Origin: Alistipes indistinctus YIT 12060
GTDB lineage: Bacteria > Bacteroidota > Bacteroidia > Bacteroidales > Rikenellaceae
Assembly (NCBI RefSeq): GCF_025144995.1
Contig: NZ_CP102250.1
Span: forward strand, 1,860,001 to 1,924,000
Direction of reading: 5' to 3'
DNA length: 64,000 nt
Shown: positions 16,724 through 50,750 of the stretch, piece after piece
Position numbering within the stretch: position 1 is the stretch's first letter
How the letters are laid out: the number at the start of each line of letters is the position of its first letter
Program-made: the position numbers and the translations under genes
The notes under the pieces: model-generated
Told to the model about the DNA's origin: nothing
Database searches by the model: none
The model's input: only the letters and a program-made list of their open reading frames with translations

Positions 16724-16779
16724 GTAAAACATTTGAAATATCAGCGAAACATGCTGCAAAGGCCGTTTGGGACGGATAT

Positions 16780-16815: not shown

Positions 16816-16840
16816 AGGAAAGTTAGATTAATCAGCGAGA

Positions 16841-22053: not shown

Positions 22054-22064
22054 TTAATCGTTCG
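22054..22064 (-). repeat. 11-bp SusC-associated site 1 (putative recombination site)
   Basis: CGAACGATTAA reading toward SusC1. Flanks are AAA upstream and AACTGC downstream. One of six identical copies, one per SusC gene. Confidence 0.8.
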
Positions 22065-22146
22065 TTTGAAGCACGCCTTTTCGGCACGCCTAAACAGCGT
22101 ATTTAAAGACCTAAAAACAACATTATGAAGTGTCTTAAAAAGTCCA
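22065..22146 (-). repeat. Conserved block upstream of site 1
   Basis: About 80 bp shared with the regions upstream of sites 2 and 5. It includes GTTGTTTTTAGGTCTTTAAA and the direct repeat GGCGTGCC-gaaaa-GGCGTGC next to the site. The nearest promoter-like string is TAATGTTG, one mismatch from TAnnTTTG and without a -33 element. Confidence 0.6.
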
Positions 22147-22171
22147 GATAATAATTTATTTAGGTGTAGTG

Positions 22172-22215
22172 AAAAGCCGGAGGGTAGTGGCAGTAATCGC
22201 CACTACCCTCCGGCT
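22172..22215 (-). terminator. Second terminator between SusD2 and SusC1
   Basis: 17-bp arms AGCCGGAGGGTAGTGGC (22175-22191) and GCCACTACCCTCCGGCT (22199-22215), 7-nt loop, then TTTTC on the minus strand. It stops transcripts from cassette 2 before site 1. Confidence 0.8.
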
Positions 22216-22263
22216 GATTTGGCGGAATATGCAGATTCGTTAAATCGGGCGGAGTGATCAAAC

Positions 22264-22361
22264 AAAAACCAGGGCGGAACTTGCGGTTCCGCCCTGGCCA
22301 GCTGTGAGACTGATTAATCTAACCTATTAATTATTTGAGAAGTAAAAAAGGTTAGGCAAAA
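22264..22361 (-). terminator. Conserved 3' block of cassette 2 with strong intrinsic terminator
   Basis: The terminator has 12-bp arms CCAGGGCGGAAC (22269-22280) and GTTCCGCCCTGG (22286-22297) and a T5 run (22264-22268). Upstream in the transcript, CTAACC and GGTTAG form a smaller hairpin around ttacttctcaaataattaat. The whole block of about 100 bp recurs after SusD3, 4, 5 and 6. Confidence 0.85.
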
Positions 22362-22435
22362 TGAAAGTAGAATGAAAGTTGTTAAATTATTTAAGTTTGT
22401 TGATGTGTTAAGGTTGGTTGACTTTAAGCAGAATT

Positions 22436-22508
22436 GCGACAGAACTGGGTTCGACAAATGAATAATGATATGCTCTCCTCTGCTCTTTCTCGTTCCCAAT
22501 TCTGTCGC
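22436..22508 (-). other. Stem-loop element in the SusD2 3' region
   Basis: Arms GCGACAGAACTGGG (22436-22449) and CCCAATTCTGTCGC (22495-22508) pair with one mismatch across a 45-nt loop. An outer, weaker pair lies at about 22417-22428 and 22548-22560. Same position and size as the elements after the other SusD genes, but an unrelated stem sequence. Confidence 0.6.
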
Positions 22509-22563
22509 AGACCTTAAAACTTACGATTTGTTGACGCGTTGATTGATTTTAAAGGTCAACTTA

Positions 22564-24201
22564 TTAGTTATCCTGTACAATCAGATCATTATAATTCGTC
22601 GATTCTTCCGGAATCTGCAAAGCCATATTTGGAACGGTCAGGGTCGTGGCTTTAATCCAGTGTACATTGGATCCGTTACGATCTACTGGCTTATTCCAAC
22701 GTTTGTTGTTGTAATATTCCAGACCGTTTTCACCCCACATTTCGATGCGGGTCTGAAGTTGAACCATTTCCAATGCAGACAGGCCTTTCATTTCCGTGTA
22801 GGAATCGCAGGTTAATGGCGTGGCTCTTTCTTTGGTACGAGCTGCCAATAGGATATTCAACGTAGCTTTTGCATCCCCTGTGCCGCTCTGCGCTTCCGCT
22901 TCCGCTTTCATGAGGTAAACCTCCGAAAGACGCATCAGAATAACGTCTGTAAAAAATGAGGTCGCTTTCGCCTGAGACGGATCGGTCCCGCCGCCTGTTC
23001 CCACGGTGCAGGCGAACTTCAGGTTCGAGTACGGAAGGATTTTGGTAGAAGTTCCGTTAGCATATTCATAATCTGTATCAGGTAAACCGGTTACCCAGAA
23101 ATTCTGTTTGCGGTAGTCATTCTCGTTGATCTTGTCATAGAGGCGATCGTCGATACGGGCATAATTGCCGCCCGAACCGCCGCTGCAACATCCGTAAGTA
23201 TTGAAAAAATAAACCAGGTAAGCTTTGTCTTTGGTCTGGGCAAGAGGCCATCCTAAAATACATTCGGGATTCTGTGCCAGTGACAGAAAACCTGAATTAA
23301 CGGCATAGTATTGGGCTTTCCCTGTCGCATCCGGAATATTCTGGGCCACATACTGTCCCTGCGACATAAATTGAGCCCCATATACGGCGATGATCTGGTC
23401 GCATGCATGAATAGCCGTACTCCACTGGCCTGTAGCCAGCGCTACTTTAGCTTTCAGGAAGTAGGCTACACCGGCATCGAGATCGTCTTTAGCCTCGGTA
23501 AAACCGTTCGACCCGTCGGCCGTGAACCCGGCAATCGCTTTGTCCAGATCTTTGTTGATCGAATCGTAGCAGTTTTGCAGAGAAGCACGAGCCTGATAGG
23601 GCTGAGCAGGATTGTAGTAAGAATAGTACGGAACGCCGAGTTTGTCTTTGCCTCCAGCCATATATGCTTGCTGATAGTTATCCACCAACCAGTTATAGGC
23701 ATAAGCCCGGATTAGATAAGCCCAAGCTTGGTACTTCTTCATCGTCGCATTGTTACCTACTGTCTTGTCATCAACGACATTGAGCACTTTGTTGGCATCA
23801 GTTACCCAAACCCAACCTTGTTCCCAGTAAGGATAGTTTCTGGTTGAATTGGCAGTTCGGAAATCCGTCAAAGCATACTCGTCGCGGCCAAACCCGCTTG
23901 CGGTCGCTTGTTGTCCGAACACGACATCATTACCTTCGAAGCTACGCATGGGCAACATTCCGAAATACGAGCCATAACGATATTCCAAAGCTCCACCCTT
24001 GGAATTGTTTTTGAGTATCTCTGTAGGCAGTCCGCCAGCGACTCCGCCCAAAATGACTTCGATCGTTTCATCATCCGCGGTGGCAAGTAACTCCTTTACC
24101 TGTTCGTCGGTGATGGCGTTGGGAGGAGCAATATTCAGCTTTTCGTAGCATGAAGAGGTGACTAACCCCACCAATGAAAGTGCTATTAAGTATTTTTTCA
24201 T
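22564..24201 (-). CDS. SusD-family surface glycan-binding lipoprotein, cassette 2
   Basis: 545 residues; lipobox SLVGLVTSSC (Cys18), then YEKLNIAPPNAITDEQVKEL. SusD scaffold motifs include KYQAWAYLIRAYAYNWLVDN, LMRLSEVYLMKAEAEAQSGT and the near-C-terminal RIEMWGENGLEYYNNKRW. It starts 12 bp after SusC2. The coding sequence is visibly more AT-rich than cassette 5. A Gly/Cys-rich surface loop (TYGCCSGGSGGNYARI) is unique to this member. Confidence 0.95.
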   Translation of the reverse strand: MKKYLIALSLVGLVTSSCYEKLNIAPPNAITDEQVKELLATADDETIEVILGGVAGGLPTEILKNNSKGGALEYRYGSYFGMLPMRSFEGNDVVFGQQATASGFGRDEYALTDFRTANSTRNYPYWEQGWVWVTDANKVLNVVDDKTVGNNATMKKYQAWAYLIRAYAYNWLVDNYQQAYMAGGKDKLGVPYYSYYNPAQPYQARASLQNCYDSINKDLDKAIAGFTADGSNGFTEAKDDLDAGVAYFLKAKVALATGQWSTAIHACDQIIAVYGAQFMSQGQYVAQNIPDATGKAQYYAVNSGFLSLAQNPECILGWPLAQTKDKAYLVYFFNTYGCCSGGSGGNYARIDDRLYDKINENDYRKQNFWVTGLPDTDYEYANGTSTKILPYSNLKFACTVGTGGGTDPSQAKATSFFTDVILMRLSEVYLMKAEAEAQSGTGDAKATLNILLAARTKERATPLTCDSYTEMKGLSALEMVQLQTRIEMWGENGLEYYNNKRWNKPVDRNGSNVHWIKATTLTVPNMALQIPEESTNYNDLIVQDN

Positions 24202-24213
24202 AATTGTGTTGTT

Positions 24214-27200
24214 TTAGAAAGTTACGTTAACACCCAGCGAGCAGGTCTTCATGTAAGGATAAGTTCCTCGACCGACAGCCCAACCTCCGGTGATATCCAT
24301 ACGCGGGTCAATGCCGGACTGACTGGTAATCAGCCACATGTTGTCGAGCGATGCGTAGACGCGGATGCCGCCGATGCCGATCTTGTCCATCCACCGTTGC
24401 GGGAAATTATAGCCTACCGTAATGTTCTTGACGCTCAAGTATGAGGCATTGAACAACGACATATCGGTATATTGCCATGAGCTACCCCATGCGATACCGC
24501 TGGCAGGCCAGCTGGCACCGTTCGGATTGGCATAAATCTGCATCGGGAATTTGGCGCCCGTATTCGTGTAGGTGGCATTGGCATTGGCACCGGCCGGCGA
24601 CCAAGTGTTATTCTTCATATCTGCCGAAACGGGTTTACCTATCTTTTGGTTATTATACCAGCCATCATAACCGTAATCGGCACTGAAGAATTTACCTCCG
24701 ATCTGGAATGCAAATGTTGCGGCAATATCGAAGTTTTTGTAAGTAAAGCTAGTACTGAAGCCGCCGATAAAGTCAGGAGTAGCATCGCCCAGTTCGACCC
24801 GGTCGGCAATCGAGTAGTTGGTCGTTCCAACCAAATCACCCTCTTTAGCGGAGCCGAAAGTCCCGGCAGTCGCTTCTGCTGCAGTTACGTAATGCGAATA
24901 AAGGGGCAAACCCGTTGTTTGGTCAACACCCATGTATCTTACCTGATAAATGTTGTAGTAGGGTTTGCCTTCCCCGCGCAAATAAATGATACCGGCACCA
25001 CCGCCCACGCCGGACATGCTCCATGCGTCCGAAGTTGCAGTCCAACAGTTATTCAGTTTCGGATCGCCTACGCCTTCAGGGGTATTGGCCATCGTGCTTT
25101 TATAATGTCCGCCATTTACGGAGAACGACCAAAGGATATCCGGAGTCTTGATGATATCCACGCCCAAATCGAACTCAATACCCCATGTTTTCATTTTAGC
25201 GGAGTTTGCAGCGATCGTGGTCTGTCCTTTTTCGATAGACATCGGAACATTCCACAGCATGTCATCGGTCATGCTGCGATACCAGTCGATCGTACCGTAG
25301 AAACGGTCCCACAGACGGAAATCCAGACCTACATCCCATGTCTTTTTCGTCTCCCAGGTCAGCGATGAGTTGGCCATGGCATTCTGAGTCAGTTTCCAAC
25401 CCGAAGGCATCGACGCACCTGAATTCAGCCAGCCTGTTGCAGCGTATCCCCATGTCGTATAGCCGGCATAATTTCCAATGCCGCTCTGGTTACCGGTAGT
25501 GCCATAATCAGCACGTAATTTCAGGTCGGTCAGCCAGGATGCATCTTTGATCCATTCTTCATTCGAGATACGCCAGGCACCTCCCAATGACCAGAACCAT
25601 CCCCAACGGTCCGATACGTTTTTGAATTTCGAAGACCCGTCGGTACGGACACTGGCGCTTATAAAATAGCGGCTATCATAGTTGTAATTTGCACGCAGGA
25701 AATAACCCTCCAGAGCGATCTGGTCCTCACCGCCACCGTTGCTACCCAGTGAAGCCTGGGCCGCAGCCGAAGTATTCAATGCGATGAAGTTGGCGAATGT
25801 ATTGAAGTTAGGAATCAAACTCATTGAACTTACATAGTTCAATGAAGAGCTGCGGGTCCAGTTAAATTCATGACCGAGCAAGGCATCTACATGATGTTTC
25901 CCGTAATCATGACTCCAGTTCAAAGTCTGGAGAGCGTTGATATTCATGTAATCCCAGTAGTTGCGGGCGAAACCTCCGCCAGATGTGCGGTAACGCCCCG
26001 TCTCTTTGTTGAAATAGCGAGATTTCATCATATAAGTCTCGTCAACAGCCAAAGAGGTGCGGAAAGTGAAATCTTTCAAGAATTTGGCCTCCAGATAACC
26101 GTTCATGTTAATATCGTTGTAAATGCTCTCGTTGATATTATCATGAGCGATTTTAATCGGGTCGTACTGGTTGGCCATCGGCGGAGCCGTTTGACCCAGC
26201 GGAGAATATACCACTCCGGTACGGTCGTTGACCAGCTTATTTCCGGCATCATCGCGCAATACCTCGCCGTTTTCATTGTATCGCCAAATGGGAGCCAGCA
26301 TATTGTCATCGTTGAACCAGATAAAAATATTCTCGTTCGTATCACCCGGGTTGCGTCCCCAACGGGTACCCGGCGACTGCATTGCGCGGCGGCTGTACGA
26401 CATGTTGATACCGGCTCTCAACCATTTTGTGACCTGCGTGTTGATATTACTACGAATATTGTAGCGGTTAAATTTTGATCCCATGATGTACGAGGGATCT
26501 TCGAGGTAACCGCCTGAAATGTAATAATCCGTTTTATCGGTTGCACCGCTGACCGAGATGTTGTACTCCTGACGGAATTTATTTTGCAGAAAGTAGTCAC
26601 GCCAATTGTCATAATAAAGCAATTGAGCGTTCGGGTTCAGTTTACCGTCTGTACCTACCAGGAACGTATTATTCATTGTAGAGCTTGCCGCTGTGCCCGT
26701 ACCCGTGGTAGTCAGATTACCGGCATCGGTCAATCCTGGCACTTTGTACAACAGATAGTTGTCCAAATCGTTCTTACTGCTGAAATCCGTAGTGCTTCCC
26801 GTATAGTTGAACAGGTGCTGGCTGGCGAACTTGGCCGCTTCTTCGTGCGACATATTCGGATTCTGCACATTAGTTGTGTACAGGTCGTTGCTAGCATAAC
26901 GGGCGGAGTTGTAAATTGAGCGCCAAGCCCACTCATAGATACTCTGCGGATCATCAATCAAATCGGGGTATCCCGACTGCCCGCACATGTTAATGCCCCA
27001 TTTGCCTTCAAATGTGATTTTAGCTTTACCCTGCTGACCTTTTTTAGTGGTTACGACCACGACGCCATTGGCACCACGCGAACCGTATAGAGAGGTCGAT
27101 GCCGCATCTTTTAAGACTGATATCGATTCCACATCTTTCGGGTTGATCGTCGAAAGGATATTTTTGTTTTGGTCGCTGTAGGGTACACCGTCGACTACAA

Positions 27201-27744
27201 TCAACGGATTCGAGTTATTCTGGTTGGCAGTACCGATACCGCGGATACGGATAGCCATATCCTGCCCCGGCTGACCATCTACAGAAGATACCTGAATACC
27301 AGGGATTGAGCCTTCAAGTGCTTTAGACAACGTTGAATTGGCTTGTGAACTGATAAGTTTCGAATCAATGGAACTAATCGAACCGGTTAGATCCTTTTTC
27401 TTCGCAGTTCCGTACGCAACAACAACTACATCTTCAAGAGATTGTGCGTCATCTTCCAATGTGACGTTAATAGTCGTGCTGGCTCCCGCGGTAGCCGTCA
27501 CGGATTTCGTACCCAGGAAAGAGAATTTGATTTTGCTCCCTTGGTTGGCTTTGATGGTGTAGTCACCGTCTAGGCCCGTCGAAGTGCCTACCGTGGTACC
27601 CACCACTTCCACGCTGGCGCCGATGATCGGTTGCCCGTCACTGCCCTTCACCACGCCGGAGTAAGTCCGCTCCTGCGCCTGAACCAGCGTCATGCTTAAC
27701 ACTGCCATACACAGCGTTAAAAACAATCGTAGAGTTCCTTTCAT
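24214..27744 (-). CDS. SusC-family TonB-dependent outer membrane transporter, cassette 2
   Basis: 1176 residues from MKGTLRLFLTLCMAV; an in-frame ATG at 27807 (MYNAVNHEFIGVF) lies in the leader. Signal peptide, carboxypeptidase-regulatory-like domain, TonB-box-like VVVVAYGTAKKKDL, then plug with a SDQNKNILSTINPKDVESI variant and YGSRGANGVVVVTTKKGQQ where the others have WGSRGANG. The barrel ends in the common GVNVTF. The signal-peptide allele equals SusC1, but the leader is type B like SusC3, a sign of past exchange between leaders and coding regions. No consensus promoter upstream; two terminators lie between it and cassette 3. Confidence 0.95.
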   Translation of the reverse strand: MKGTLRLFLTLCMAVLSMTLVQAQERTYSGVVKGSDGQPIIGASVEVVGTTVGTSTGLDGDYTIKANQGSKIKFSFLGTKSVTATAGASTTINVTLEDDAQSLEDVVVVAYGTAKKKDLTGSISSIDSKLISSQANSTLSKALEGSIPGIQVSSVDGQPGQDMAIRIRGIGTANQNNSNPLIVVDGVPYSDQNKNILSTINPKDVESISVLKDAASTSLYGSRGANGVVVVTTKKGQQGKAKITFEGKWGINMCGQSGYPDLIDDPQSIYEWAWRSIYNSARYASNDLYTTNVQNPNMSHEEAAKFASQHLFNYTGSTTDFSSKNDLDNYLLYKVPGLTDAGNLTTTGTGTAASSTMNNTFLVGTDGKLNPNAQLLYYDNWRDYFLQNKFRQEYNISVSGATDKTDYYISGGYLEDPSYIMGSKFNRYNIRSNINTQVTKWLRAGINMSYSRRAMQSPGTRWGRNPGDTNENIFIWFNDDNMLAPIWRYNENGEVLRDDAGNKLVNDRTGVVYSPLGQTAPPMANQYDPIKIAHDNINESIYNDINMNGYLEAKFLKDFTFRTSLAVDETYMMKSRYFNKETGRYRTSGGGFARNYWDYMNINALQTLNWSHDYGKHHVDALLGHEFNWTRSSSLNYVSSMSLIPNFNTFANFIALNTSAAAQASLGSNGGGEDQIALEGYFLRANYNYDSRYFISASVRTDGSSKFKNVSDRWGWFWSLGGAWRISNEEWIKDASWLTDLKLRADYGTTGNQSGIGNYAGYTTWGYAATGWLNSGASMPSGWKLTQNAMANSSLTWETKKTWDVGLDFRLWDRFYGTIDWYRSMTDDMLWNVPMSIEKGQTTIAANSAKMKTWGIEFDLGVDIIKTPDILWSFSVNGGHYKSTMANTPEGVGDPKLNNCWTATSDAWSMSGVGGGAGIIYLRGEGKPYYNIYQVRYMGVDQTTGLPLYSHYVTAAEATAGTFGSAKEGDLVGTTNYSIADRVELGDATPDFIGGFSTSFTYKNFDIAATFAFQIGGKFFSADYGYDGWYNNQKIGKPVSADMKNNTWSPAGANANATYTNTGAKFPMQIYANPNGASWPASGIAWGSSWQYTDMSLFNASYLSVKNITVGYNFPQRWMDKIGIGGIRVYASLDNMWLITSQSGIDPRMDITGGWAVGRGTYPYMKTCSLGVNVTF

Positions 27745-27821
27745 AATTAATTGTTTAAGGTTAATAACAAATACGCCGATAAATTCATGATTAACAGCAT
27801 TGTACATTTGTTATCATCGAA
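27745..27821 (-). promoter_or_regulatory. SusC2 5' leader, type B
   Basis: 77 nt from site 2 to the ATG. GATTAACA (27789-27796) can pair with TGTTATC (27809-27815) with one bulged base. The proximal part is TCGGCGTATTTGTTATTAACC, identical to SusC3. Confidence 0.55.
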
Positions 27822-27832
27822 TTAATCGTTCG
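27822..27832 (-). repeat. 11-bp SusC-associated site 2 (putative recombination site)
   Basis: CGAACGATTAA reading toward SusC2. The upstream flank GCTTCAAA is as at sites 1 and 5; the downstream flank TTCGATG is as at site 3. Confidence 0.8.
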
Positions 27833-27915
27833 TTTGAAGCACGCCTTTCTTACATGTCTAAACAGCGTATTTAAAGACCTAAAAACAACATTATTATATA
27901 GGTTAAAAAGTCCGG
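27833..27915 (-). repeat. Conserved block upstream of site 2
   Basis: Same sequence family as the blocks upstream of sites 1 and 5 (GTTGTTTTTAGGTCTTTAAA and GGCGTGCTTC next to the site). No TAnnTTTG match. Confidence 0.6.
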
Positions 27916-27937
27916 ATTGTATTGTATTTAGACGCAT

Positions 27938-27982
27938 TAAACAAACCGAAGGTTAGTAACTGGAAAAGCTACTAACCTTCGG
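27938..27982 (-). terminator. Second terminator between SusD3 and SusC2
   Basis: 13-bp arms CCGAAGGTTAGTA (27946-27958) and TACTAACCTTCGG (27970-27982), 11-nt loop, then TTTGTTT on the minus strand. It occupies the position of the AGCCGGAGGG hairpin of cassettes 1 and 5 with a different stem. Confidence 0.78.
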
Positions 27983-28040
27983 CTTGAATCTTCCGGCTTT
28001 TGTCGGAGTGTCGTATTGTGGAGACACCCGGATGTATCAA

Positions 28041-28139
28041 ACAAAAACCAGGGCGGAACTTGCGGTTCCGCCCTGGCCAGCTGTGAGACTGATTAATCTA
28101 ACCTATTAATTATTGAGAAGTAAAAAAGGTTAGGCAAAA
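28041..28139 (-). terminator. Conserved 3' block of cassette 3 with strong intrinsic terminator
   Basis: CCAGGGCGGAAC (28048-28059) pairs with GTTCCGCCCTGG (28065-28076), followed by T5 on the minus strand. The CTAACC/GGTTAG hairpin is also present. Confidence 0.85.
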
Positions 28140-28198
28140 ATGAATTTTAATAAAGAGTACTACAATGTCCTATACTTGTTGTTTGCGATACTTGTAAG

Positions 28199-28285
28199 AA
28201 TTGCAGCAGGATCGTGTCGAGAAAGATTAACCCTAATTTATTTAGTGGCTCCCTACAACCTTCCTTTCATGATCCTGCCACAATT
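28199..28285 (-). other. Stem-loop element A in the SusD3 3' region
   Basis: Arms AATTGCAGCAGGATCGTG (28199-28216) and CATGATCCTGCCACAATT (28268-28285) pair with few mismatches across about 51 nt. Same family as the GGATCGTG stems after SusD4, 5 and 6. Confidence 0.62.
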
Positions 28286-28324
28286 CTGTGAGAGTTTAGG
28301 AATTCCGTACACCTGATGGAAAAT

Positions 28325-28422
28325 GAATATTGTAAATAGAACCAGTTCCGCAAAGGTTAACACTTTGTTTAGATTAAGTGTTACTCTCCCTCCTTTCATT
28401 ACTAGTCCTATTTACAATATTC
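28325..28422 (-). other. Stem-loop element B immediately after SusD3
   Basis: Perfect 15-bp arms GAATATTGTAAATAG (28325-28339) and CTATTTACAATATTC (28408-28422), beginning 7 bp after the SusD3 stop. The loop on the transcript side has the AAAGGAGGGAGAG string also seen in the other elements. Cassette 3 is the only one with two such stem-loops. Confidence 0.62.
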
Positions 28423-28429
28423 TTTCATT

Positions 28430-30067: not shown

Positions 30068-30080
30068 AATTTATCGATTT

Positions 30081-33602: not shown

Positions 33603-33679
33603 AATTAATTGTTTAAGGTTAATAACAAATACGCCGATAAATTCATGATTAACAGCATTATAATGCTTTCGACATCGAA
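33603..33679 (-). promoter_or_regulatory. SusC3 5' leader, type B with perfect palindrome
   Basis: 77 nt from site 3 to the ATG. It contains the 14-bp palindrome AGCATTATAATGCT (33654-33667). The rest matches the SusC2 leader except for about 20 bp around this palindrome. Confidence 0.62.
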
Positions 33680-33690
33680 TTAATCGTTCG
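33680..33690 (-). repeat. 11-bp SusC-associated site 3; left arm of the invertible segment
   Basis: CGAACGATTAA reading toward SusC3. With site 4 it makes an inverted repeat. Its upstream flank AAAT differs from the AAA of the other copies. Confidence 0.82.
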
Positions 33691-33799
33691 ATTTATCTGG
33701 ATAGGGGCTTCGGCTGGTTTTTAGGCAGGATTTCAGGCTGAGAAAATCGGGGGAAAAGTGTGCTGTTTTTGGGTAGGCCAATTCCTTTCGAAAAATTTG

Positions 33800-33818
33800 T
33801 TGTCACTTCGAATGACAA
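33800..33818. promoter_or_regulatory. Inverted repeat inside the invertible segment
   Basis: TTGTCA-cttcgaa-TGACAA. It is symmetric and sits centrally, about 90-130 bp from either arm. It could be an operator or an accessory protein-binding site; nothing else identifies it. Confidence 0.4.
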
Positions 33819-33907
33819 ATAGGATTTTTAATGCCAGGAGAAACTTTTCAGATGTCAAAAACAAAAGGGTCGAGACAAAAATGAAAGGAATATTTTAGGG
33901 CTAAAGT

Positions 33908-33936
33908 GTTGTTATAAAAAAAAACTTTTATATTTG
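33908..33936 (+). promoter_or_regulatory. Bacteroidota-type promoter driving SusC4
   Basis: TATATTTG at 33929-33936 is a full match to -7 TAnnTTTG. GTTG at 33908-33911, 17 bp upstream, is the best -33 candidate. Transcription would begin about 5-10 bp before site 4, so the site and hairpin leader are in the mRNA. This is the only TAnnTTTG match found next to any of the six sites. Confidence 0.72.
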
Positions 33937-33947
33937 TAATTAGAAAA

Positions 33948-33958
33948 CGAACGATTAA
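33948..33958 (+). repeat. 11-bp SusC-associated site 4; right arm of the invertible segment
   Basis: CGAACGATTAA reading toward SusC4, flanked by GAAAA upstream and AACTGC downstream as at site 1. Confidence 0.82.
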
Positions 33959-34037
33959 AACTGCTAAAACGGTCTTTACAAGGCTGTTTGTCATGCAGTT
34001 TTTCGGCGTATTTGTTATTAACCTTAAACAATTAATT
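33959..34037 (+). promoter_or_regulatory. SusC4 5' leader, type A hairpin with type B proximal end
   Basis: Arms AAACTGC (33958-33964) and GCAGTTT (33995-34001). The upper part matches the SusC1 leader; from TCGGCGTA on it has TTTGTTATTAACC as in SusC2 and SusC3. The leader is therefore a mosaic. Confidence 0.62.
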
Positions 34038-37571: not shown

Positions 37572-37583
37572 AATTAACGAATT

Positions 37584-39179: not shown

Positions 39180-39189
39180 TTCTTACAGA

Positions 39190-39268
39190 CTGTGGTAGGA
39201 TCGTGAAAAGAGAGGTTGGGGAGAGGCAACTGTTGTTGTTAACCTCTCCGGACACGGTCCTGCTACAG
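39190..39268 (+). other. Stem-loop element in the SusD4 3' region
   Basis: Arms CTGTGGTAGGATCGTG (39190-39205) and CACGGTCCTGCTACAG (39253-39268), with a G-U pair and one mismatch. The loop contains a second pairing, GGAGAGG with CCTCTCC. Confidence 0.62.
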
Positions 39269-39324
39269 AATCTGTATTAACAAGATCAACACCAATTTAC
39301 ACCCTTAACACCTTTTACAACAAA

Positions 39325-39425
39325 TTTTGCCTAACCTTTTTTACTTCTCAAATAATTAATAGGTTAGATTAATCAGTTTCACAGCTGGCCAGGGCGGAAC
39401 CGCAAGTTCCGCCCTGGTTTTTGTT
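39325..39425 (+). terminator. Conserved 3' block of cassette 4 with strong intrinsic terminator
   Basis: TTTTGCCTAACC begins the block. The terminator arms are CCAGGGCGGAAC (39389-39400) and GTTCCGCCCTGG (39406-39417), followed by TTTTTGTTT. Confidence 0.86.
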
Positions 39426-39470
39426 TGATCACTCCGCCCGATTTAACGAATCTGCATATCCCGCCAAATC

Positions 39471-39514
39471 AGCCGGAGGGTAGTGGCGATTACGGCCACT
39501 ACCCTCCGGCTTTT
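39471..39514 (+). terminator. Second terminator between SusD4 and SusC5
   Basis: 17-bp arms AGCCGGAGGGTAGTGGC (39471-39487) and GCCACTACCCTCCGGCT (39495-39511), then TTTT. Nearly the same sequence as the hairpin upstream of SusC1. Confidence 0.8.
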
Positions 39515-39540
39515 CAATACACCTAAATAAATTATTATCT

Positions 39541-39621
39541 GGACTTTTTAAGACATTTCATAATGTTGTTTTTAGGTCTTTAAATGCGCTGTTTAGGCAT
39601 GCCAAAAAGGCGTGCTTCAAA
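39541..39621 (+). repeat. Conserved block upstream of site 5
   Basis: Matches the blocks before sites 1 and 2 (GTTGTTTTTAGGTCTTTAAA, GGCGTGCTTCAAA). No consensus promoter. Confidence 0.6.
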
Positions 39622-39632
39622 CGAACGATTAA
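39622..39632 (+). repeat. 11-bp SusC-associated site 5 (putative recombination site)
   Basis: CGAACGATTAA reading toward SusC5. The downstream flank AACACACAAG is identical to site 6. Confidence 0.8.
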
Positions 39633-39714
39633 AACACACAAGACACTGTATAACAGCTTGTTACATAGTGGTTTAATCGGCGTATACCTTTTTATTAACC
39701 TTAAACAATTAATT
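39633..39714 (+). promoter_or_regulatory. SusC5 5' leader, type C hairpin
   Basis: Arms CACTGTATAACA (39644-39655) and TGTTACATAGTG (39659-39670) pair with one mismatch and a short loop. The proximal part TCGGCGTATACC is as in SusC1. Identical to the SusC6 leader. Confidence 0.65.
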
Positions 39715-43236: not shown

Positions 43237-43248
43237 ATTTTACGAATT

Positions 43249-44892
43249 ATGAAAAAATACTTGATAGCACTTTCCGCGCTGGCCTTCGCGACCACGTCGT
43301 GTTATGAGAAACTGAATATCGCTCCGCCCAACGCCATCTCCAACGAACAGGTGCAGGAGTTGCTGAAAACGGCGGACGATGAAACGATCGAAACCATCCT
43401 GGGGGCGATCGCCAACACGCTGAAACCCGAGATGTACGGCAGCGGATACAATTTCCGCTACTCCGGTAACCTCGACGGAACCTGGAGCGGACAGTTCATC
43501 GCCCGCCTCAGTTGCGGTAACGATATCGTAAAAGGTAACTGGCAAAACCCTGGGGATGACTATTACAACGGTGAAAACATCACTGGAGAAACCAATGCCA
43601 ACAACCCGAGTTGGTGGCACCGGGCTTTCAGAATGACCACGACCGCCAACAAAGCGGCCACCATGATCAACGAAGAGCTGATTGCGGAAAACCCGAGCAA
43701 TCTGTTAAAAAAGTACCTGGGAGGGATCTATGTTATCCGTGCATTCGGGTATCTCTATGCCCAGGAGACCTTCGGGACCAACAGCCTGGGTATGCCGATC
43801 TATACGAAATACGATATCAGTCAGCCGGCAGTGGCCCGTGCTTCGGCCAAAGAGACCCTCGACTCGGTAATCCGGTGGGCTACCCGCGCGGATGCACTCT
43901 TCGAAGCTGCCGGAGTCGGTTTCAAAGCGACGCCGGCCAGTGACCTGACCCGCGGCCTGACCAATTACGTCATCGCCCGTGCCGCGCTGCTGGCTGTCGA
44001 GGCCGAAGGGGCGAATGCAAGCACCTATTTCGCAACGGCATCGGCCGCCTGCGACAAGATGTTGGGTGCAGGAGCGTCTCTGATGACCGAAGAGCAATAT
44101 GTACAAAAGCAGTCCGGCGTTACGACGATCGAAGGGGCCGACTATCCTGTCTGGAAAGCTGCGACCAGCGGTTTCATGAACTTCGAGCTGAACCCTGAAG
44201 CGCTTTACGGTTTCGGCTGGCAGTACGGCGGCGGCGGGCAGATCGTTACCTATGCCAATACATGGGGTGGTTCGTACCGTATTGACGACCGGCTTTACAA
44301 CAAGATCGATCCGAACGACTACCGCAAGGATAACTTCCATCCGCAGATTCCGGCCGACTTCCCGACGATCTCTTATGCAGGTGCCAGCTCGTTTATCGAC
44401 GGAGGTACCAGTGAAGTTCCGACTTACTGGACTTCGAAATTCACGAACAACGTAGGTCTCGGCGGAGAAGTCGGCAACTCGAATGTAACCGTACGCAACC
44501 GTGTTGACTACGCTTTTATCCGTTTGTCCGAGATTTACCTGATGAAGGCTGAAATTCAAGCCCGTACCGGAGATGAAGGAGGGGCGAAAAATACGCTGAA
44601 CACGTTGCTGAACGCCCGTACCAAAGCCGGAGCTACTCCGCTGACCTGCGACAACTATCAGGGCATGAGTGGACTGAGCGCTCTGCAGATGGTGCAGCTC
44701 CAGTCCCGCATCGAACTGTGGGGTGAAGGTGGCCTCGAGTGGTTCAACAACCGCCGCTGGAACATTCCGGTGAACCGTCAGGGTTCTACGGTACACTGGA
44801 ATCCTGCGATGACCTATCCGGTTTCACAGATGACCATGAAGATTCCTTCGGAGGAGATTTCATCGAACCCGAACTGTCAGCAAAATCCTTGA
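43249..44892 (+). CDS. SusD-family surface glycan-binding lipoprotein, cassette 5
   Basis: 547 residues; lipobox ALAFATTSC with Cys18, then YEKLNIAPPNAISNEQVQEL. Scaffold motifs include LKKYLGGIYVIRAFGYLYAQ, YAFIRLSEIYLMKAEIQART and RIELWGEGGLEWFNNRRW. It starts 12 bp after SusC5 and runs convergently toward SusD6, whose 3' region has the same terminator family in opposite orientation. Confidence 0.95.
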   Translation: MKKYLIALSALAFATTSCYEKLNIAPPNAISNEQVQELLKTADDETIETILGAIANTLKPEMYGSGYNFRYSGNLDGTWSGQFIARLSCGNDIVKGNWQNPGDDYYNGENITGETNANNPSWWHRAFRMTTTANKAATMINEELIAENPSNLLKKYLGGIYVIRAFGYLYAQETFGTNSLGMPIYTKYDISQPAVARASAKETLDSVIRWATRADALFEAAGVGFKATPASDLTRGLTNYVIARAALLAVEAEGANASTYFATASAACDKMLGAGASLMTEEQYVQKQSGVTTIEGADYPVWKAATSGFMNFELNPEALYGFGWQYGGGGQIVTYANTWGGSYRIDDRLYNKIDPNDYRKDNFHPQIPADFPTISYAGASSFIDGGTSEVPTYWTSKFTNNVGLGGEVGNSNVTVRNRVDYAFIRLSEIYLMKAEIQARTGDEGGAKNTLNTLLNARTKAGATPLTCDNYQGMSGLSALQMVQLQSRIELWGEGGLEWFNNRRWNIPVNRQGSTVHWNPAMTYPVSQMTMKIPSEEISSNPNCQQNP

Positions 44893-44905
44893 TCCGTTTA
44901 CAGAA

Positions 44906-44985
44906 CTGTAGCGGGATCGTGAAAGGAGGGGTGTGGGAGAGCCAACAGTTTGTTGTTGACCTCTCCGGACACGGTCCTGCCACAG
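44906..44985 (+). other. Stem-loop element in the SusD5 3' region
   Basis: Arms CTGTAGCGGGATCGTG (44906-44921) and CACGGTCCTGCCACAG (44970-44985), with a wobble and a mismatch. The loop contains GGGAGAG/CTCTCC and the string CCAACAGTTTGTTGTTGAC, shared with cassettes 4 and 6. Confidence 0.62.
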
Positions 44986-45040
44986 ATCTGTATTAACGAG
45001 ATCAACTCCAATTTACACCCTTAACACTTTTTACAACAAA

Positions 45041-45140
45041 TTTTGCCTAACCTTTTTTACTTCTCAAATAATTAATAGGTTAGATTAATCAGTTTCACAG
45101 CTGGCCAGGGCAGAACCGCAAGTTCCGCCCTGGTTTTGTA
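45041..45140 (+). terminator. Conserved 3' block of cassette 5 with intrinsic terminator
   Basis: Block from TTTTGCCTAACC. Arms CCAGGGCAGAAC (45105-45116) and GTTCCGCCCTGG (45122-45133) with one mismatch, then TTTT. Confidence 0.83.
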
Positions 45141-45301
45141 TTATAACCCTAAGCTATGTCAGCAGGCATATCTAATACAAATTCACTGATTATTAAATTA
45201 ATGTATACTTTGCTATTCTCGTTTAAAAACGAGGAGATGATAAAATTTTAAATTTCCTACAAACCGGGAACAGATATCGAGTGCAGGTAAAACAACAATA
45301 C
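45141..45301. other. Convergent spacer between cassettes 5 and 6
   Basis: About 160 AT-rich bp between two oppositely oriented terminators, not repeated elsewhere in the window. It holds a small hairpin CTCGTTT-aa-AAACGAG (45218-45233). I see no ORF, promoter or site here. Confidence 0.5.
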
Positions 45302-45399
45302 AAAAACCAAGGCGGAACTTGCGGTTCCGCCCTGGCCAGCTGTGAAACTGATTAATCTAACCTATTAATTATTTGAGAAGTAAAAAAGGTTAGGCAAAA
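45302..45399 (-). terminator. Conserved 3' block of cassette 6 with intrinsic terminator
   Basis: Arms CCAAGGCGGAAC (45307-45318) and GTTCCGCCCTGG (45324-45335) with one mismatch, T5 run on the minus strand. The upstream CTAACC/GGTTAG hairpin is present. Confidence 0.83.
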
Positions 45400-45430
45400 T
45401 TTGTTGTAAAAGGTGTTACTGTTTTAAGTC

Positions 45431-45508
45431 CTGTAGCAGGATCGTGCAGGAGACGTTAACAACAACTGTTGGCTCTCCCACGCCCTCCTTGCACGATCCC
45501 AGCCACAG
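45431..45508 (-). other. Stem-loop element in the SusD6 3' region
   Basis: Arms CTGTAGCAGGATCGTGCAGGA (first 20 bases pair best; 45431-45451) and a partner at 45486-45508 that includes TTGCACGATCCCAGCCACAG. The loop holds the CCAACAGTTGTTGTTAAC string of this element family. Confidence 0.63.
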
Positions 45509-45516
45509 TCCTTTGA

Positions 45517-47133
45517 TTAATCCAGTACAAGATTAGGATTGGTATTGATTTCCTGCATCGGAATGCTCATGGTCATTTGCGATACGGAGAACTGCATGGC
45601 AGGATTCCAATGGTTCGCAGAACCCTGGCGGTTCACCGGAATGTTCCAGCGGTGGTTGTTGAACCACTCGAGGCCACTCTCACCCCACATCTCGATACGG
45701 GTCTGCAACTGAACCTTCTGCAATTCCGTCGTCACGTCCGACGGATAAGGATAGGTGGCAGCCGTATACCTTCCGTTCGTACGCTCCTGAATCAGCGGAT
45801 CCAAAGCGGCATTCGCACTGCCACCCTGTTGTGCCAAAGCTTCGGCTTTCATCAGGATCACCTCCGATACGCGGAACATGCAGTAGTCGATGTTCAAGGA
45901 GGTGCTCGACGCGGTTTCGACCGTCTGGCCGATACCGACGTTGGCCGCGAATTTCACGTTCATATACGGTCCCATCTGATACGTCGTACCGTCGTTGATC
46001 TTATTCAGGGGAGTGGTATACGATCCCCAAACATCCTTGTGGAAATTATCCTTACGGTAGTCTCCTTCGGCAATCTTGTCATACAACCGGGTGTCGATGC
46101 TGGCGATATTCGGAGTTGCCAGGTTGTTCGTCCAGTAGCTTGCCGAGCCGTAAGCTTTGTTGTTGTAAGGATAACCCAGAATTACTTCGGGGTTCTGCTG
46201 CAGGCAGGTAAATCCTTTGTGCTCGGCAAAGTAAGCAACGTAATCGGCGCCAGATGGAGCTTCGTTGACACCCACGTACTGCGACTCATTCATCAGCGTC
46301 GGGTAAGCGGCCAGAATCTCGTCGCAGGCACTGATCACGGTCGCCCAATCACCGGCGCACAGGGCCGCACGTGCCAGTACGAAATTGGCAACGCCCAGGT
46401 CGATATCGGTCGGATCGTCTTTGGTGTAACCCACCTGCGCGTCCTTAAGCAGCTTAACGCCGTCTTTCGCCCAGGTCAGGATCGAATCGTAAGTTTCCTT
46501 GGCCGAAGAACGCGCCACCGGAGGATTGTTGATGCTGTACTTGGTATAGATGGACAACCCGAGTTTCGAACTGCCACCGTTGGTGTACGAGTCAACATAA
46601 CACTCCATCAGGTAGTTGTATGCATACGCCCGCATCACCTGGCCCCAGCCTTTGTACTTGCGGAGCGTAAGCGAAGCATTTTCATTCAACAGCTCGTCGG
46701 TCAGGTAATTCATAACCTTGTTCGTGCTGGTAATGAGGCTGTAGCCGCGAGTCCAGTAAGCTGAAGAGACTTCCTCGGAAGCACCGTTCAGGTTGATACC
46801 CGCATAGAGGTTACCGTGGTCACCGCTCGGAGCCGTATAATCGGAAGCGCTCGTTACCAAGTCGTTACCGGTTATATTGCGGCAAAGGAGCTGTGCCTGG
46901 TAGTTGTAGAAATATTGGTTGTTGAACGTGGTATAACCGCCGCCTTTGAAGAGGGTCGGGATGTTATCGGCCATACCTCCCAATATCGTCACCACAGTCG
47001 CTTCGTCCGCTGTTTTCAGCAGTGCCTGTACCTGTTCATCGGTAATGGCGTTGGGGGGAGCGATATTCAGTTTTTCGTAACACGAGGTCGTGGCAAGGCC
47101 TACCAACGAAAGTGCTATCAGATATTTTTTCAT
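45517..47133 (-). CDS. SusD-family surface glycan-binding lipoprotein, cassette 6
   Basis: 538 residues; lipobox SLVGLATTSC with Cys18, then YEKLNIAPPNAITDEQVQAL. Scaffold motifs include LRKYKGWGQVMRAYAYNYLM, YCMFRVSEVILMKAEALAQQ and RIEMWGESGLEWFNNHRW. It starts 26 bp after the SusC6 stop, a wider gap than the 12-13 bp of the other five pairs, and ends in VLD rather than the VQN/VQNP seen in most paralogues. Confidence 0.95.
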   Translation of the reverse strand: MKKYLIALSLVGLATTSCYEKLNIAPPNAITDEQVQALLKTADEATVVTILGGMADNIPTLFKGGGYTTFNNQYFYNYQAQLLCRNITGNDLVTSASDYTAPSGDHGNLYAGINLNGASEEVSSAYWTRGYSLITSTNKVMNYLTDELLNENASLTLRKYKGWGQVMRAYAYNYLMECYVDSYTNGGSSKLGLSIYTKYSINNPPVARSSAKETYDSILTWAKDGVKLLKDAQVGYTKDDPTDIDLGVANFVLARAALCAGDWATVISACDEILAAYPTLMNESQYVGVNEAPSGADYVAYFAEHKGFTCLQQNPEVILGYPYNNKAYGSASYWTNNLATPNIASIDTRLYDKIAEGDYRKDNFHKDVWGSYTTPLNKINDGTTYQMGPYMNVKFAANVGIGQTVETASSTSLNIDYCMFRVSEVILMKAEALAQQGGSANAALDPLIQERTNGRYTAATYPYPSDVTTELQKVQLQTRIEMWGESGLEWFNNHRWNIPVNRQGSANHWNPAMQFSVSQMTMSIPMQEINTNPNLVLD

Positions 47134-47159
47134 AATTCTCTCGTTTTTATCACTCTATT

Positions 47160-50100
47160 TTAGAAAGTTATGTTAACACCCAGCGAGCAGGTGCGCATCT
47201 GAGGATAACCCATAGCGCCAACCTCCATACCACCGACCAAAGACTGACGAGGATCGATACCTGACTTGCTGGTAATCAGCCACATATTATCCAACGAGGC
47301 GTATACGCGGATACCGCCGATACCGATTTTGTCCATCCATTTCTGCGGGAAGTTATAGCCCACGGTAATGTTTTTCACACTCAGGTAAGAAGCATCGAAC
47401 AGCGACATGTCGGTGTAAGCCCAGCTGCCGATCGATGCGCCGTAAGTATAGCTGTCACCGTTCGGATTGGCATACATCATCATCGGGTATTTCGCACTGG
47501 TATTGGTCGCGGTCCAGGTATTGTTTCTCAAATCTTCCGAAACCAAATAGCCGGGGGTCGTATCATCGTAGTAATACAGCGCATAGCTATTGCTGAAGAA
47601 TTTACCGCCGATCTGGAATGCGAAAGTAGCCGAGAAGTCGAGGTCTTTCCAACGGAAAGAGGTATTGAAACCGCCGATAAGTTTCGGAGTAGCGTCGCCG
47701 ATCTCCTGCCGGGTGGCCAGCGAGTGGTTCGTGGTGTATACCATATTGCCCTCTTTCAGTTCCCCCACATAGTGCGATGCGCGCAGTGCCTCGATATTCT
47801 CCGAAGTTACCGTCGAAGAGATCAGCGGCAGACCGGTAGCCTGGTCAACGCCGCCGTACAGATACTGGTAGACGTTGTAATAGGGTTTACCCACGCCGCG
47901 CAGGTAGAACGCACCGTTACTGATCGTACCGGTACCGGCTGCAGTCCAGCCGTCGGGATTGGCTTCCCACATACCGTTCAGTTTGTCCGAACCGGTGCCT
48001 TCGGGCACTTTCGTCAGGATCGTCTTATAGTGCGCCCCGTTTACACCGAACGACCAAAGGATGTCCGGTGTTTTGATGATATCCACACCCAGTTCGAATT
48101 CGAAACCGCGCGTGCGCAACTCGGCCGAGTTCGCAGCGATCGAAGACTGACCGGTAGCGGCATAGTTCGTCGGTGCGTTCCAGATCATATCGGTGGTATT
48201 GGTCTGATACCAGTCCAAAGTACCGTAGAAACGGTCCCACAGACGGAAATCCAAACCTACGTCGACGGTCTTTTTCTTCTCCCAGGTCAGAGCGGCAGCC
48301 GCACTACCCTGCGAGATTTTCCAACCGTCGGGTTTAAAACTGCCCGGGGTGCTGTTACCCGTTGAGCCGTAGCTCCAGGTCAGGTAGCCTGCATAACGGC
48401 CGATACCGTTCTGGTTGCCGATCACACCGTAGTCGGCACGAAGTTTCAGGTCGGTCAGCCAGGTAGCATCTGCGAGCCAAGATTCCGAAGAGAGACGCCA
48501 TGCGCCGCCCACGCTCCAGAACACGCCCCAACGGTCGTCGTTGTAGCGGAATTTCGAAGAACCGTCGGCACGAATGGAAGCCGTTACATAGTACTTGTTA
48601 TCGAAGTTGTAATTTGCGCGGGCGAAGTAACCCTCGAGGGCCTCTTGGTCCTCGCCGCCGCCACCACCTGAGAAGGGGCTATCGCCACCGTTGAGCCACA
48701 GGAAGTTGGCAAACGTGTCAAACCCGTTGATCAGTGAATACGCGCTTTTGAAGTTCAGCGAAGAAGAGCGGTTCCAGTTGAACTCGTGACCGATCAGGGC
48801 GTCTACGTGGTGTTTTCCGTAATCGTGTGCCCAAGTCAGCAATTGCTGGCTGTTGATGTTCATGTAGTCGCTGTAGTTACGACCCATCGTACCGCCGTAA
48901 GACTTGGAAGCTCCGGTTTCCTTGTTGGCATAGCGTTCGCGCATCGCAAAAGTTTCATCCACGGCGATATTAGCACGGAACGTGAAATCTTTCAGGAATT
49001 TGGCTTCTACATAACCGCTCATGTTCAAGTCGTTGTAGATCGTTTGATCCTTATCGTCCTGAAGCTGCTGGATCAGGTTGTAACCGTTGGCCGGATAACG
49101 CGCATTGACGTATCCCAGCGGAGAGTACTGTTGCCCGTTGTTTCCGACAAAGATTTTTTCGCCGGTCTTTTCATCGTACATCAACGCACCGTTCTCGTCG
49201 CGCTGCCACATCTGGGCCAAGGCGTTCCGGGCATAGAGCCAATAAAAGACGTTCTGTACGGTCGTACCCGGGTTACGTCCCCAACGGGTAGCCATCGATT
49301 GCTGGGCACGACGGCTGTAAGCAATATTTACACCGGCTTTCAACCATTTATTAATCTGCGTATTGACATTGGAACGCAAGTTATAGCGGTTGAATTTAGA
49401 CGAAACGAAATAAGAGGGATCGGACAGGTAGCCGGCTGAAATGAAATAGTCGGTTTTGTCGGTCGCACCGCTGACGGTAACGTTATACTCCTGGCGGAAA
49501 GATTTTTGGAAAACGGCGTCTTCCCAGTCGTCATTATACATCAGGGTGGCGTTCGGATTGAGCTTGCCATCGGTTCCTACCAGGAAAATATTCTTCAAAG
49601 TAGAGCTGGCATTGGATCCGGAGCCGGTTTTGATCAGGTTCTCTTCTGCGGTCAGGCCCGGAACGTTGTACAGCAACCAGTTGCTCATCGGGTTTTTGCC
49701 GTCAAACTTCGTTGTGCTTCCGGTGTAGTTGAACAGGTGCTGGCTGGCGAAGAGGGCTGCCTCTTCGTGAGTCATGTTCGGATTCTGCACATTGGTCGTG
49801 TAGTTCTGATTGCTGCCATAGCGAGCCGAATTGTAAATCGCCTGCCAGGCATTCTCATAAATATCAGCAGGGCTGTCCATCAGTTCTGCCTGATTGCTGC
49901 CGATCATGTTCATACCCCACTTACCTTCGAAAGTAACCCGGGCTTTGCCCTGCTGGCCGCGCTTGGTCGTTACCATCACGACGCCGTTGGCGCCGCGCGA
50001 ACCCCACAGGGCTGTCGAAGCGGCATCCTTCAGAACGGTGATCGATTCCACATCCTTCGGGTTCAGGGTTGCCAGTACATTGGAGTTTGTATTGGGCACC

Positions 50101-50657
50101 CCATCGATTACGATCAACGCATTCGCATTGTTCTGGCTGGCAGTACCGATACCGCGGATACGGATACCCATATCGGTACCAGGCTGGCCGTCGACCGAAG
50201 ATACCTGCAGACCCGGGATAGAGCCTTCCAGGGCTTTGGACAGCGTCGAGTTAGACTGTGAGCTGATCAGTTTCGAGTCGATCGAGCTGACTGAACCCGT
50301 CAGGTCTTTTTTCTTCGCGGTACCGAAAGCCTGAACAACGACTTCCTCCAAGCCCATCGCATCGTCTTCGAGGGTGACGTTAATGGTAGTGCTGCCACCT
50401 GCGGTAACCGTCACGGACTTCGTGCCCAGGAAGGAGTATTTGATCTTGCTCCCTTGGTTGGCTTTGATGGTGTAGTCACCGTCAAGGCCCGTCGAAGTAC
50501 CTACGGTGGTACCCACCACTTCCACGCTGGCGCCGATGATCGGTTGCCCGTCACTGCCCTTCACCACGCCGGAGTAAGTCCGCTCCTGCGCCTGAACCAG
50601 CGTCATGCTTAATGCTGTGATACACAGCACTAAAAACAATCGTAGAGTTCCTTTCAT
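47160..50657 (-). CDS. SusC-family TonB-dependent outer membrane transporter, cassette 6
   Basis: 1165 residues from MKGTLRLFLVLCITALSM; an in-frame ATG at 50714 (MLHSGLIGVYLF) lies in the leader. KANQGSKIKYSF allele as in SusC5, TonB-box-like EVVVQAFGTAKKKDL as in SusC1, plug TNSNVLATLNPKDVESI, WGSRGANGVVMV, barrel ending GVNITF. Its upstream region has neither the conserved block of cassettes 1, 2 and 5 nor a TAnnTTTG promoter. The divergent beta-helix gene lies beyond. Confidence 0.95.
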   Translation of the reverse strand: MKGTLRLFLVLCITALSMTLVQAQERTYSGVVKGSDGQPIIGASVEVVGTTVGTSTGLDGDYTIKANQGSKIKYSFLGTKSVTVTAGGSTTINVTLEDDAMGLEEVVVQAFGTAKKKDLTGSVSSIDSKLISSQSNSTLSKALEGSIPGLQVSSVDGQPGTDMGIRIRGIGTASQNNANALIVIDGVPNTNSNVLATLNPKDVESITVLKDAASTALWGSRGANGVVMVTTKRGQQGKARVTFEGKWGMNMIGSNQAELMDSPADIYENAWQAIYNSARYGSNQNYTTNVQNPNMTHEEAALFASQHLFNYTGSTTKFDGKNPMSNWLLYNVPGLTAEENLIKTGSGSNASSTLKNIFLVGTDGKLNPNATLMYNDDWEDAVFQKSFRQEYNVTVSGATDKTDYFISAGYLSDPSYFVSSKFNRYNLRSNVNTQINKWLKAGVNIAYSRRAQQSMATRWGRNPGTTVQNVFYWLYARNALAQMWQRDENGALMYDEKTGEKIFVGNNGQQYSPLGYVNARYPANGYNLIQQLQDDKDQTIYNDLNMSGYVEAKFLKDFTFRANIAVDETFAMRERYANKETGASKSYGGTMGRNYSDYMNINSQQLLTWAHDYGKHHVDALIGHEFNWNRSSSLNFKSAYSLINGFDTFANFLWLNGGDSPFSGGGGGEDQEALEGYFARANYNFDNKYYVTASIRADGSSKFRYNDDRWGVFWSVGGAWRLSSESWLADATWLTDLKLRADYGVIGNQNGIGRYAGYLTWSYGSTGNSTPGSFKPDGWKISQGSAAAALTWEKKKTVDVGLDFRLWDRFYGTLDWYQTNTTDMIWNAPTNYAATGQSSIAANSAELRTRGFEFELGVDIIKTPDILWSFGVNGAHYKTILTKVPEGTGSDKLNGMWEANPDGWTAAGTGTISNGAFYLRGVGKPYYNVYQYLYGGVDQATGLPLISSTVTSENIEALRASHYVGELKEGNMVYTTNHSLATRQEIGDATPKLIGGFNTSFRWKDLDFSATFAFQIGGKFFSNSYALYYYDDTTPGYLVSEDLRNNTWTATNTSAKYPMMMYANPNGDSYTYGASIGSWAYTDMSLFDASYLSVKNITVGYNFPQKWMDKIGIGGIRVYASLDNMWLITSKSGIDPRQSLVGGMEVGAMGYPQMRTCSLGVNITF

Positions 50658-50739
50658 AATTAATTGTTTAAGGTTAATAAAAAGGTATACGCCGATTAAA
50701 CCACTATGTAACAAGCTGTTATACAGTGTCTTGTGTGTT
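50658..50739 (-). promoter_or_regulatory. SusC6 5' leader, type C hairpin
   Basis: Arms CACTATGTAACA (50702-50713) and TGTTATACAGTG (50717-50728). Identical to the SusC5 leader over its whole 82 nt. Confidence 0.65.
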
Positions 50740-50750
50740 TTAATCGTTCG
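50740..50750 (-). repeat. 11-bp SusC-associated site 6 (putative recombination site)
   Basis: CGAACGATTAA reading toward SusC6. The upstream flank TTTTAAA differs from all other copies. Confidence 0.8.

Follow-up and report, generated by a model that had tools for sequence, protein, structure and literature searches.

SusC/SusD Cassettes and the Repeated Site

The window analyzed here is a stretch of 64,000 nucleotides (nt) from the chromosome of Alistipes indistinctus YIT 12060 (NZ_CP102250.1, positions 1,860,001 to 1,924,000). It contains an array of six SusC/SusD gene pairs, denoted cassettes 1 to 6, with a short repeated site ahead of each pair, and the array is described below as a putative shufflon. 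The open reading frames of all six SusC proteins (1156–1177 amino acids, aa) and all six SusD proteins (531–548 aa) are intact. The SusC proteins are 63–76% identical to one another, with a mean of 91% across the first 150 alignment columns, and the SusD proteins align at 36–54% identity. Seven of the 12 proteins were scanned against Pfam, which identified the plug and CarboxypepD-like domains in 4/4 SusC proteins, the barrel in 3/4, and the SusD domains in 3/3. The coordinates of the features are listed in Table 1.

The initial annotation of this DNA had reported an 11-mer once ahead of each SusC gene and in constant orientation relative to it. Exact copies of the 11-mer, CGAACGATTAA, are found on the minus strand at 22054, 27822, 33680, and 50740 and on the plus strand at 33948 and 39622, so that sites s1, s2, s3, and s6 are inverted relative to s4 and s5. 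The positions and orientations are as reported, as is the gene order (minus, minus, minus, plus, plus, minus). The distance from the 11-mer to the ATG of the start MKGTLRLF is 77–82 bp for 6/6 SusC genes, always in the same relative orientation; the longer open reading frame starts fall inside the leader in 5/6. By chance 0.06 copies are expected in the window, and six copies were reached in 0/100 shuffles. A scan with one mismatch allowed detected no site in the window beyond the six exact copies. A search of the whole genome for further copies had also been proposed. When the 2.86-Mb genome was searched, seven exact copies were obtained, and the seventh, between rpoA and rplQ, is unrelated.

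The motif had been treated as an 11-mer of no known kind, and this description is replaced here. A fuller site, AA(A/T)CGAACGATTAA, fits all six array sites, and the only exact copies of the 14-mer AA(A/T)CGAACG(A/T)TTAA in the genome are the six of the array. In a search with a 16-mer and up to three mismatches, s6 has 0 mismatches, s1, s2, and s5 have 1, and s3 and s4 have 2; for further sites in the genome, all 16-mer matches taken together are near the control (33 vs 29). The available portion of PMC8375218 gives the Mpi-type repeats as ARACGTTCGTN in Bacteroides fragilis and as the 10-bp GTTCGTTTAA in B. intestinalis. The exact complement of GTTCGTTTAA is contained in s6, and the other sites differ from it by at least one base. 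The array site thus appears, from its close match to the published repeats, to be of the Mpi type.

Promoter Segment and Borders at the Site

Segment P lies between the inverted sites s3 and s4 and carries a single TAnnTTTG box, which is directed toward s4. Within 120 nt upstream of the sites, an exact TAnnTTTG box is found at s4 alone and at none of the other five. The single promoter proposed previously is therefore retained, as one –7 box at s4. Its layout is corrected: P is a two-ended inverton bounded by s3 and s4.

The leaders that follow the sites are of three types, each present twice. Over 46 nt the identities are 96% for s1/s4, 91% for s2/s3, and 100% for s5/s6, and those for the remaining site pairs are 61–76%. 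Upstream of the sites, a tail of type A is shared by s1, s2, and s5 (82–96% over 100 nt); the other upstream pairs are 65–79% identical, near the level of shuffled sequences (60–78%). The same leader meets differing upstream DNA, and upstream type A meets all three leaders, which locates the change in sequence at the 11-mer. At each site, upstream DNA gives way to SusC leader exactly at the 11-mer.

The leaders (for example, 33948–34030, 39622–39710, and 33605–33690) are of three unlike types, and all fold into hairpins. The z scores of the predicted folds range from –0.95 to –2.94, and the 11-mer pairs with downstream bases in 5/6 of them. Such pairing would suit a second explanation, in which a structured 5′ leader begins with the 11-mer as a conserved element, or the 11-mer marks the start of transcription, and an ordinary series of duplicated cassettes was reoriented by rare homologous recombination. 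The cassettes are indeed paralogous, with near-identical SusC 5′ ends and tails. Against this explanation, RNAalifold provides almost no covariation support for the folds, and the 11-mer is constant between unlike sequences on both sides. The 11-mer also occurs elsewhere in inverted pairs around promoter segments that invert between species, as described below, and the explanation is regarded as quite unlikely.

The Same Site in Related Genomes

In other genomes of the family, some promoter segments are flanked by inverted pairs of the pattern AA(A/T)CGAACG(A/T/G)TTAA, and four of these pairs are beside Mpi-family serine invertase genes. The set of Mpi loci consists of 30 among the matches listed; L094–L098, L108, and L125 were scanned for sites and are absent from the protein identity comparison given below. 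With at most one mismatch per site, inverted pairs are present at 4 of these 30 loci and direct pairs at none. The four are L099, L101, L102, and L105, in genomes G070, G053, G074, and G065, respectively. The reversed pattern and five shuffles of the pattern each gave 0 pairs. A second set of 27 loci was retrieved by the site itself, after three loci of the A. indistinctus genome were left out of the 30 among the matches listed. The ratio of inverted to direct pairs in this set is 6:0 at one mismatch and 13:2 at two, and part of the inverted pairs are the ends of dispersed hairpin elements of the genus designated g8.

The segments at L099, L101, L102, L105, L158, and L166 are 156–157 bp in length, and in 6/6 a TAnnTTTG box is found at –25 toward one end only. 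Segment P has the same plan, with its box at –16. The segment at L171 (107 bp) is without a TAnnTTTG box.

The four mpi loci L099, L101, L102, and L105 represent the same place in four species, and both flanks align in the forward direction in 6/6 comparisons. For the segment itself, L099/L101 and L102/L105 give forward alignments; the four cross comparisons give reverse ones, with scores of 23.0 to 47.5 reversed vs –4.0 to 5.0 forward. With the segment reversed and the flanks collinear, it follows that the site-bounded segment beside the Mpi-family gene has inverted between species. With the left flank as reference, the segment in L172/L173 is also reversed; these loci are possibly paralogous, and the comparison of the mpi loci is cleaner.

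In genus g8 the dispersed elements (L155, L159, L160, L164, L167, and L170; genomes G015, G070, G065, and G034) are approximately 300–330 bp in length. Their ends are inverted copies of the 14-mer, they contain internal hairpins, and they are located in the vicinity of housekeeping genes (metK and argC, for example). The central loops in L164 and L170 are in opposite orientation. Five g8 genomes contain 5–11 copies of the site, and the closest two in G034 are 12 kb apart. In a genome from another family of the order (G373:C1:502097-502235), an exact pair of AAACGAACGATTAA is inverted and faces inward across 111 bp. This pair is perhaps another inverton, and the sites of P face outward instead.

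Candidate Recombinases

A search with PF00239 identified one serine recombinase in the A. indistinctus genome, about 0.8 Mb from the array. Against the Mpi profile NF009949 it scores 248.7 bits (4e-74), where the equivalog cut-off is 272. The protein is 62–70% identical to 24 of the 25 relatives compared and 51% identical to the remaining one. Two more Mpi-family matches in the same genome are weak and C-terminal, which leaves one clear copy overall. The tyrosine recombinase family PF00589 is represented by 16 matches. The window contains none of the 16 tyrosine (PF00589) matches and not the single serine (PF00239) match, transposases not having been searched for; a local recombinase of either kind was accordingly rejected. 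On the basis of the recombinase inventory and the type of site, the Mpi-family enzyme acting in trans is the most likely worker, and a tyrosine recombinase is next.

The driver of the same shufflon could instead be a tyrosine recombinase whose gene lies elsewhere, on the pattern of the SusC/SusD shufflons of B. fragilis, and the 16 matches supply candidates, none of them in the window. Tyrosine recombinases require a shared overlap of 6–8 bp between two bound arms, and about 14 bp are common to the sites here. The site resembles Mpi-type repeats, and some of its pairs in the relatives adjoin Mpi-family genes. This alternative is considered rather unlikely, with a direct precedent in Tsr0667, a tyrosine recombinase that works three SusC/SusD clusters of B. 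fragilis according to the available portion of PMC4747536.

The Mpi-family gene of A. indistinctus (L063 9830-10507, G000:C1:2726830-2727507) is beside sugar-nucleotide and glycosyltransferase genes, and no inverted pair of the array site is present in the 20 kb examined at this locus. The weak C-terminal matches are two similar genes of 235 aa (L124 7264-9074, G000:C1:2067264-2069074), which adjoin the palindromic TTAAACGTACGTTTTA and a tyrosine recombinase gene.

Model of the Proposed Shufflon

The best reading of the array, held with fairly good confidence, is a SusC/SusD shufflon in which six cassettes share one invertible promoter and on which an Mpi-family serine invertase encoded elsewhere in the chromosome probably acts in trans. 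In this model the leader of each cassette would start at a recombination site, the SusC/SusD pair would follow, and a terminator would close the cassette. The promoter would be carried by the small segment P, with one site per end, and the serine invertase would recombine inverted site pairs. Inversions would flip P, single cassettes, or blocks, so as to place one cassette behind the promoter with the rest silent. Each site would consist of an upstream half, on the side of the promoter or tail, and a downstream half, on the side of the leader, around a central AA, and recombination would always join upstream half to downstream half. Serine invertases usually avoid deletions between direct sites; direct pairs could in principle also delete cassettes. 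What we infer is that the array recombines in this species, which enzyme does so, that crossover takes place at AA, and that the other five cassettes are silent.

The arrangements were enumerated by inversions between inverted sites only, under the half-site rule. There are 8 first moves and 240 reachable arrangements, each within at most six steps and each with one of the six cassettes behind the promoter, and ON states are reachable by inversion alone for 6/6 cassettes. Cassette 4 is behind the promoter at present, cassettes 1, 2, 3, and 6 would be after one inversion, and cassette 5 after two. The inversions given as examples in the initial annotation (1×4, 2×4, 3×4 followed by 3×5, and 5×6) agree with the enumerated model. 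The half-site rule makes the movable units cassettes 2, 3, and 4, segment P, and a block of cassettes 5 and 6, with cassette 1 and the right flank fixed. Cassettes 5 and 6 are one convergent unit with a leader at either end and no recombination site between the tails. The earlier proposal of a shufflon with one site per cassette finds good support in the anatomy of the array and in the invertible promoters of the relatives, with the movable units corrected and the kind of system being one already known.

Several observations weigh against this reading. The Mpi-family gene is unlinked to the array and scores under the curated cut-off, and the tyrosine recombinases are further candidates. When up to two mismatches per site are allowed, the same 30 loci among the matches listed provide 8 inverted and 2 direct pairs, and five loci whose gene is above the curated Mpi cut-off (L094–L098) contain no site pair. 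The 14-mer is not exclusive to promoter invertons, since it also ends the g8 hairpin elements. The predicted pairing of the 11-mer in the leader folds counts in the same direction, switching in this species is deduced from one assembly, and no array-like cluster was found in 268 genomes of the family or 393 of the order (overlapping sets).

The tails of cassettes 5 and 6, which meet with no site between them, would fit a former shufflon that is now frozen with cassette 4 on. The intact genes (12/12 open) and six sites identical at the 11-mer speak against a frozen array, in which one would expect decay of the five cassettes that are never expressed, and a frozen state is judged very improbable.

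Cassette Tails, Neighboring Genes, and Homologous Sequences

The hairpins 3′ of SusD2 to SusD6 are near-identical and are followed by a U-run; the hairpin after SusD1 is related to them. The 163 bp where the tails of cassettes 5 and 6 meet (45138–45300) are unlike the other tails and are without a long second hairpin of the kind in cassettes 2–4. The neighbors on the left of the array include GH106, GH123, and GH141-type proteins, and those on the right include beta-helix and heparinase-like proteins. An operon joining cassette 1 to the glycosidase genes was set aside on account of the hairpin and T-run after SusD1.

Table 1. Features of the SusC/SusD array (positions in the window)
Feature	Position	Strand	Remarks
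Site s1, AAACGAACGATTAA	22054..22067	–	before SusC1; leader type a, upstream type A
Site s2, AAACGAACGATTAA	27822..27835	–	before SusC2; leader type b, upstream type A
Site s3, AATCGAACGATTAA	33680..33693	–	before SusC3; leader type b; left end of P
Site s4, AAACGAACGATTAA	33945..33958	+	before SusC4; leader type a; right end of P, promoter side
Site s5, AAACGAACGATTAA	39619..39632	+	before SusC5; leader type c, upstream type A
Site s6, AAACGAACGATTAA, extended TTAAACGAACGATTAA	50740..50753	–	before SusC6; leader type c; right end of array
Promoter segment P	33691..33947	+	257 bp, 35% GC; between s3 and s4
TATATTTG, Bacteroidetes-type –7 box (TAnnTTTG)	33929..33936	+	faces s4, 16 nt before its 14-mer
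SusC1, 1156 aa	18501..21971	–	Pfam and alignment
SusD1, 548 aa	16841..18487	–	Pfam and alignment
SusC2, 1176 aa	24214..27744	–	Pfam and alignment
SusD2, 545 aa	22564..24201	–	Pfam and alignment
SusC3, 1173 aa	30081..33602	–	alignment; outside Pfam scan
SusD3, 545 aa	28430..30067	–	alignment
SusC4, 1177 aa	34038..37571	+	alignment; behind promoter in present assembly
SusD4, 531 aa	37584..39179	+	Pfam and alignment
SusC5, 1173 aa	39715..43236	+	Pfam and alignment
SusD5, 547 aa	43249..44892	+	alignment
SusC6, 1165 aa	47160..50657	–	Pfam and alignment
SusD6, 538 aa	45517..47133	–	alignment
Terminator-like hairpin and T-run after SusD2	22270..22296	–	
Terminator-like hairpin and T-run after SusD3	28049..28075	–	
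Terminator-like hairpin and T-run after SusD4	39390..39416	+	
Terminator-like hairpin and T-run after SusD5	45106..45132	+	
Terminator-like hairpin and T-run after SusD6	45308..45334	–	
Related hairpin and T-run after SusD1	16766..16835	–	–19.3 kcal/mol, without shuffle control
Second, longer hairpin, cassette 2 tail	22160..22230	–	
Second, longer hairpin, cassette 3 tail	27930..28005	–	different stem sequence
Second, longer hairpin, cassette 4 tail	39450..39525	+	

When the leader DNA was used to search 150 genomes of the family, two matches were obtained, one in the A. indistinctus genome and a weak one in G007. The latter genome, which holds CALVFO010000003.1 ("uncultured Alistipes sp."; 20 kb identical), contains a related SusC (81%), and the 11-mer is absent from the 23.6 kb examined there. 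The search for homologous arrays gave 0 matches among viral contigs.

Relation to Known Systems

An importer array with six cassettes and a single promoter had been put forward as probably undescribed in that form. The kind of system is known: B. fragilis has SusC/SusD shufflons that use an invertible promoter (available portions of PMC5729914 and PMC4747536), and in its intergenic shufflon of region EE the inversion of large segments brings alternative SusC/SusD (ragA/ragB) pairs behind such a promoter (PMC5729914). In the available portion of an inverton survey, TonB receptor and SusD genes are enriched near the largest Bacteroidota group (PMC11892184). The present array resembles the B. fragilis shufflon, as far as the accessible text describes it, in having several pairs, mixed orientation, one promoter, and inverted repeats before each SusC. 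In the B. fragilis system the enzyme described there is a tyrosine recombinase, the inverted repeats are extensive and cover the susC start codon, and there are three gene pairs in strain 638R and six genes in HMW615. In the array described here, one promoter serves six pairs, the site spans about 14 bp and precedes the leader, and the enzyme is probably a serine invertase.

The Mpi-type capsule promoters of B. fragilis and B. intestinalis have nearly the same inverted repeat around a promoter, and an Mpi-family gene acting in trans, in the accessible parts of PMC8375218 and PMC4747536. Those promoters have two sites and one locus per segment, whereas the present array has six sites and six operons for one promoter. 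Rci is a different enzyme and exchanges alternative gene ends; the present array would exchange whole operons behind a promoter. The two systems are alike in that several inverted sites lead to many arrangements in the Rci shufflon of plasmid R64 and in other multi-site systems of its kind (available portion of PMC11852207).

What is new here is probably the combination of six pairs on one promoter, a short Mpi-type site, a probable serine invertase, and the host genus, to which CALVFO010000003.1 also belongs. In the portions of the literature available to the search, no such array appears in Alistipes or under Mpi, and it may have been noticed earlier; the accessible part of PMC10939037 contains a single mention of Alistipes, which concerns abundance. 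On balance we favor a six-way SusC/SusD selector with one promoter and 240 arrangements, run by an Mpi-type serine invertase of the sort known from capsule promoter switches with two sites. The importer shufflon would then have arisen a second time, independently of the tyrosine-recombinase version in B. fragilis. If the array switches, importer selectors of one kind would have been built by recombinase families unrelated to each other. Exact, countable predictions for long-read data follow from the half-site rule. The benefit may lie in the choice of nutrients or in escape from phages or immunity. If the array switches, one strain would be a mixture of cells with six importers on one frame, hidden by a single reference genome and with a bearing on nutrient use, phage entry, and immune recognition.

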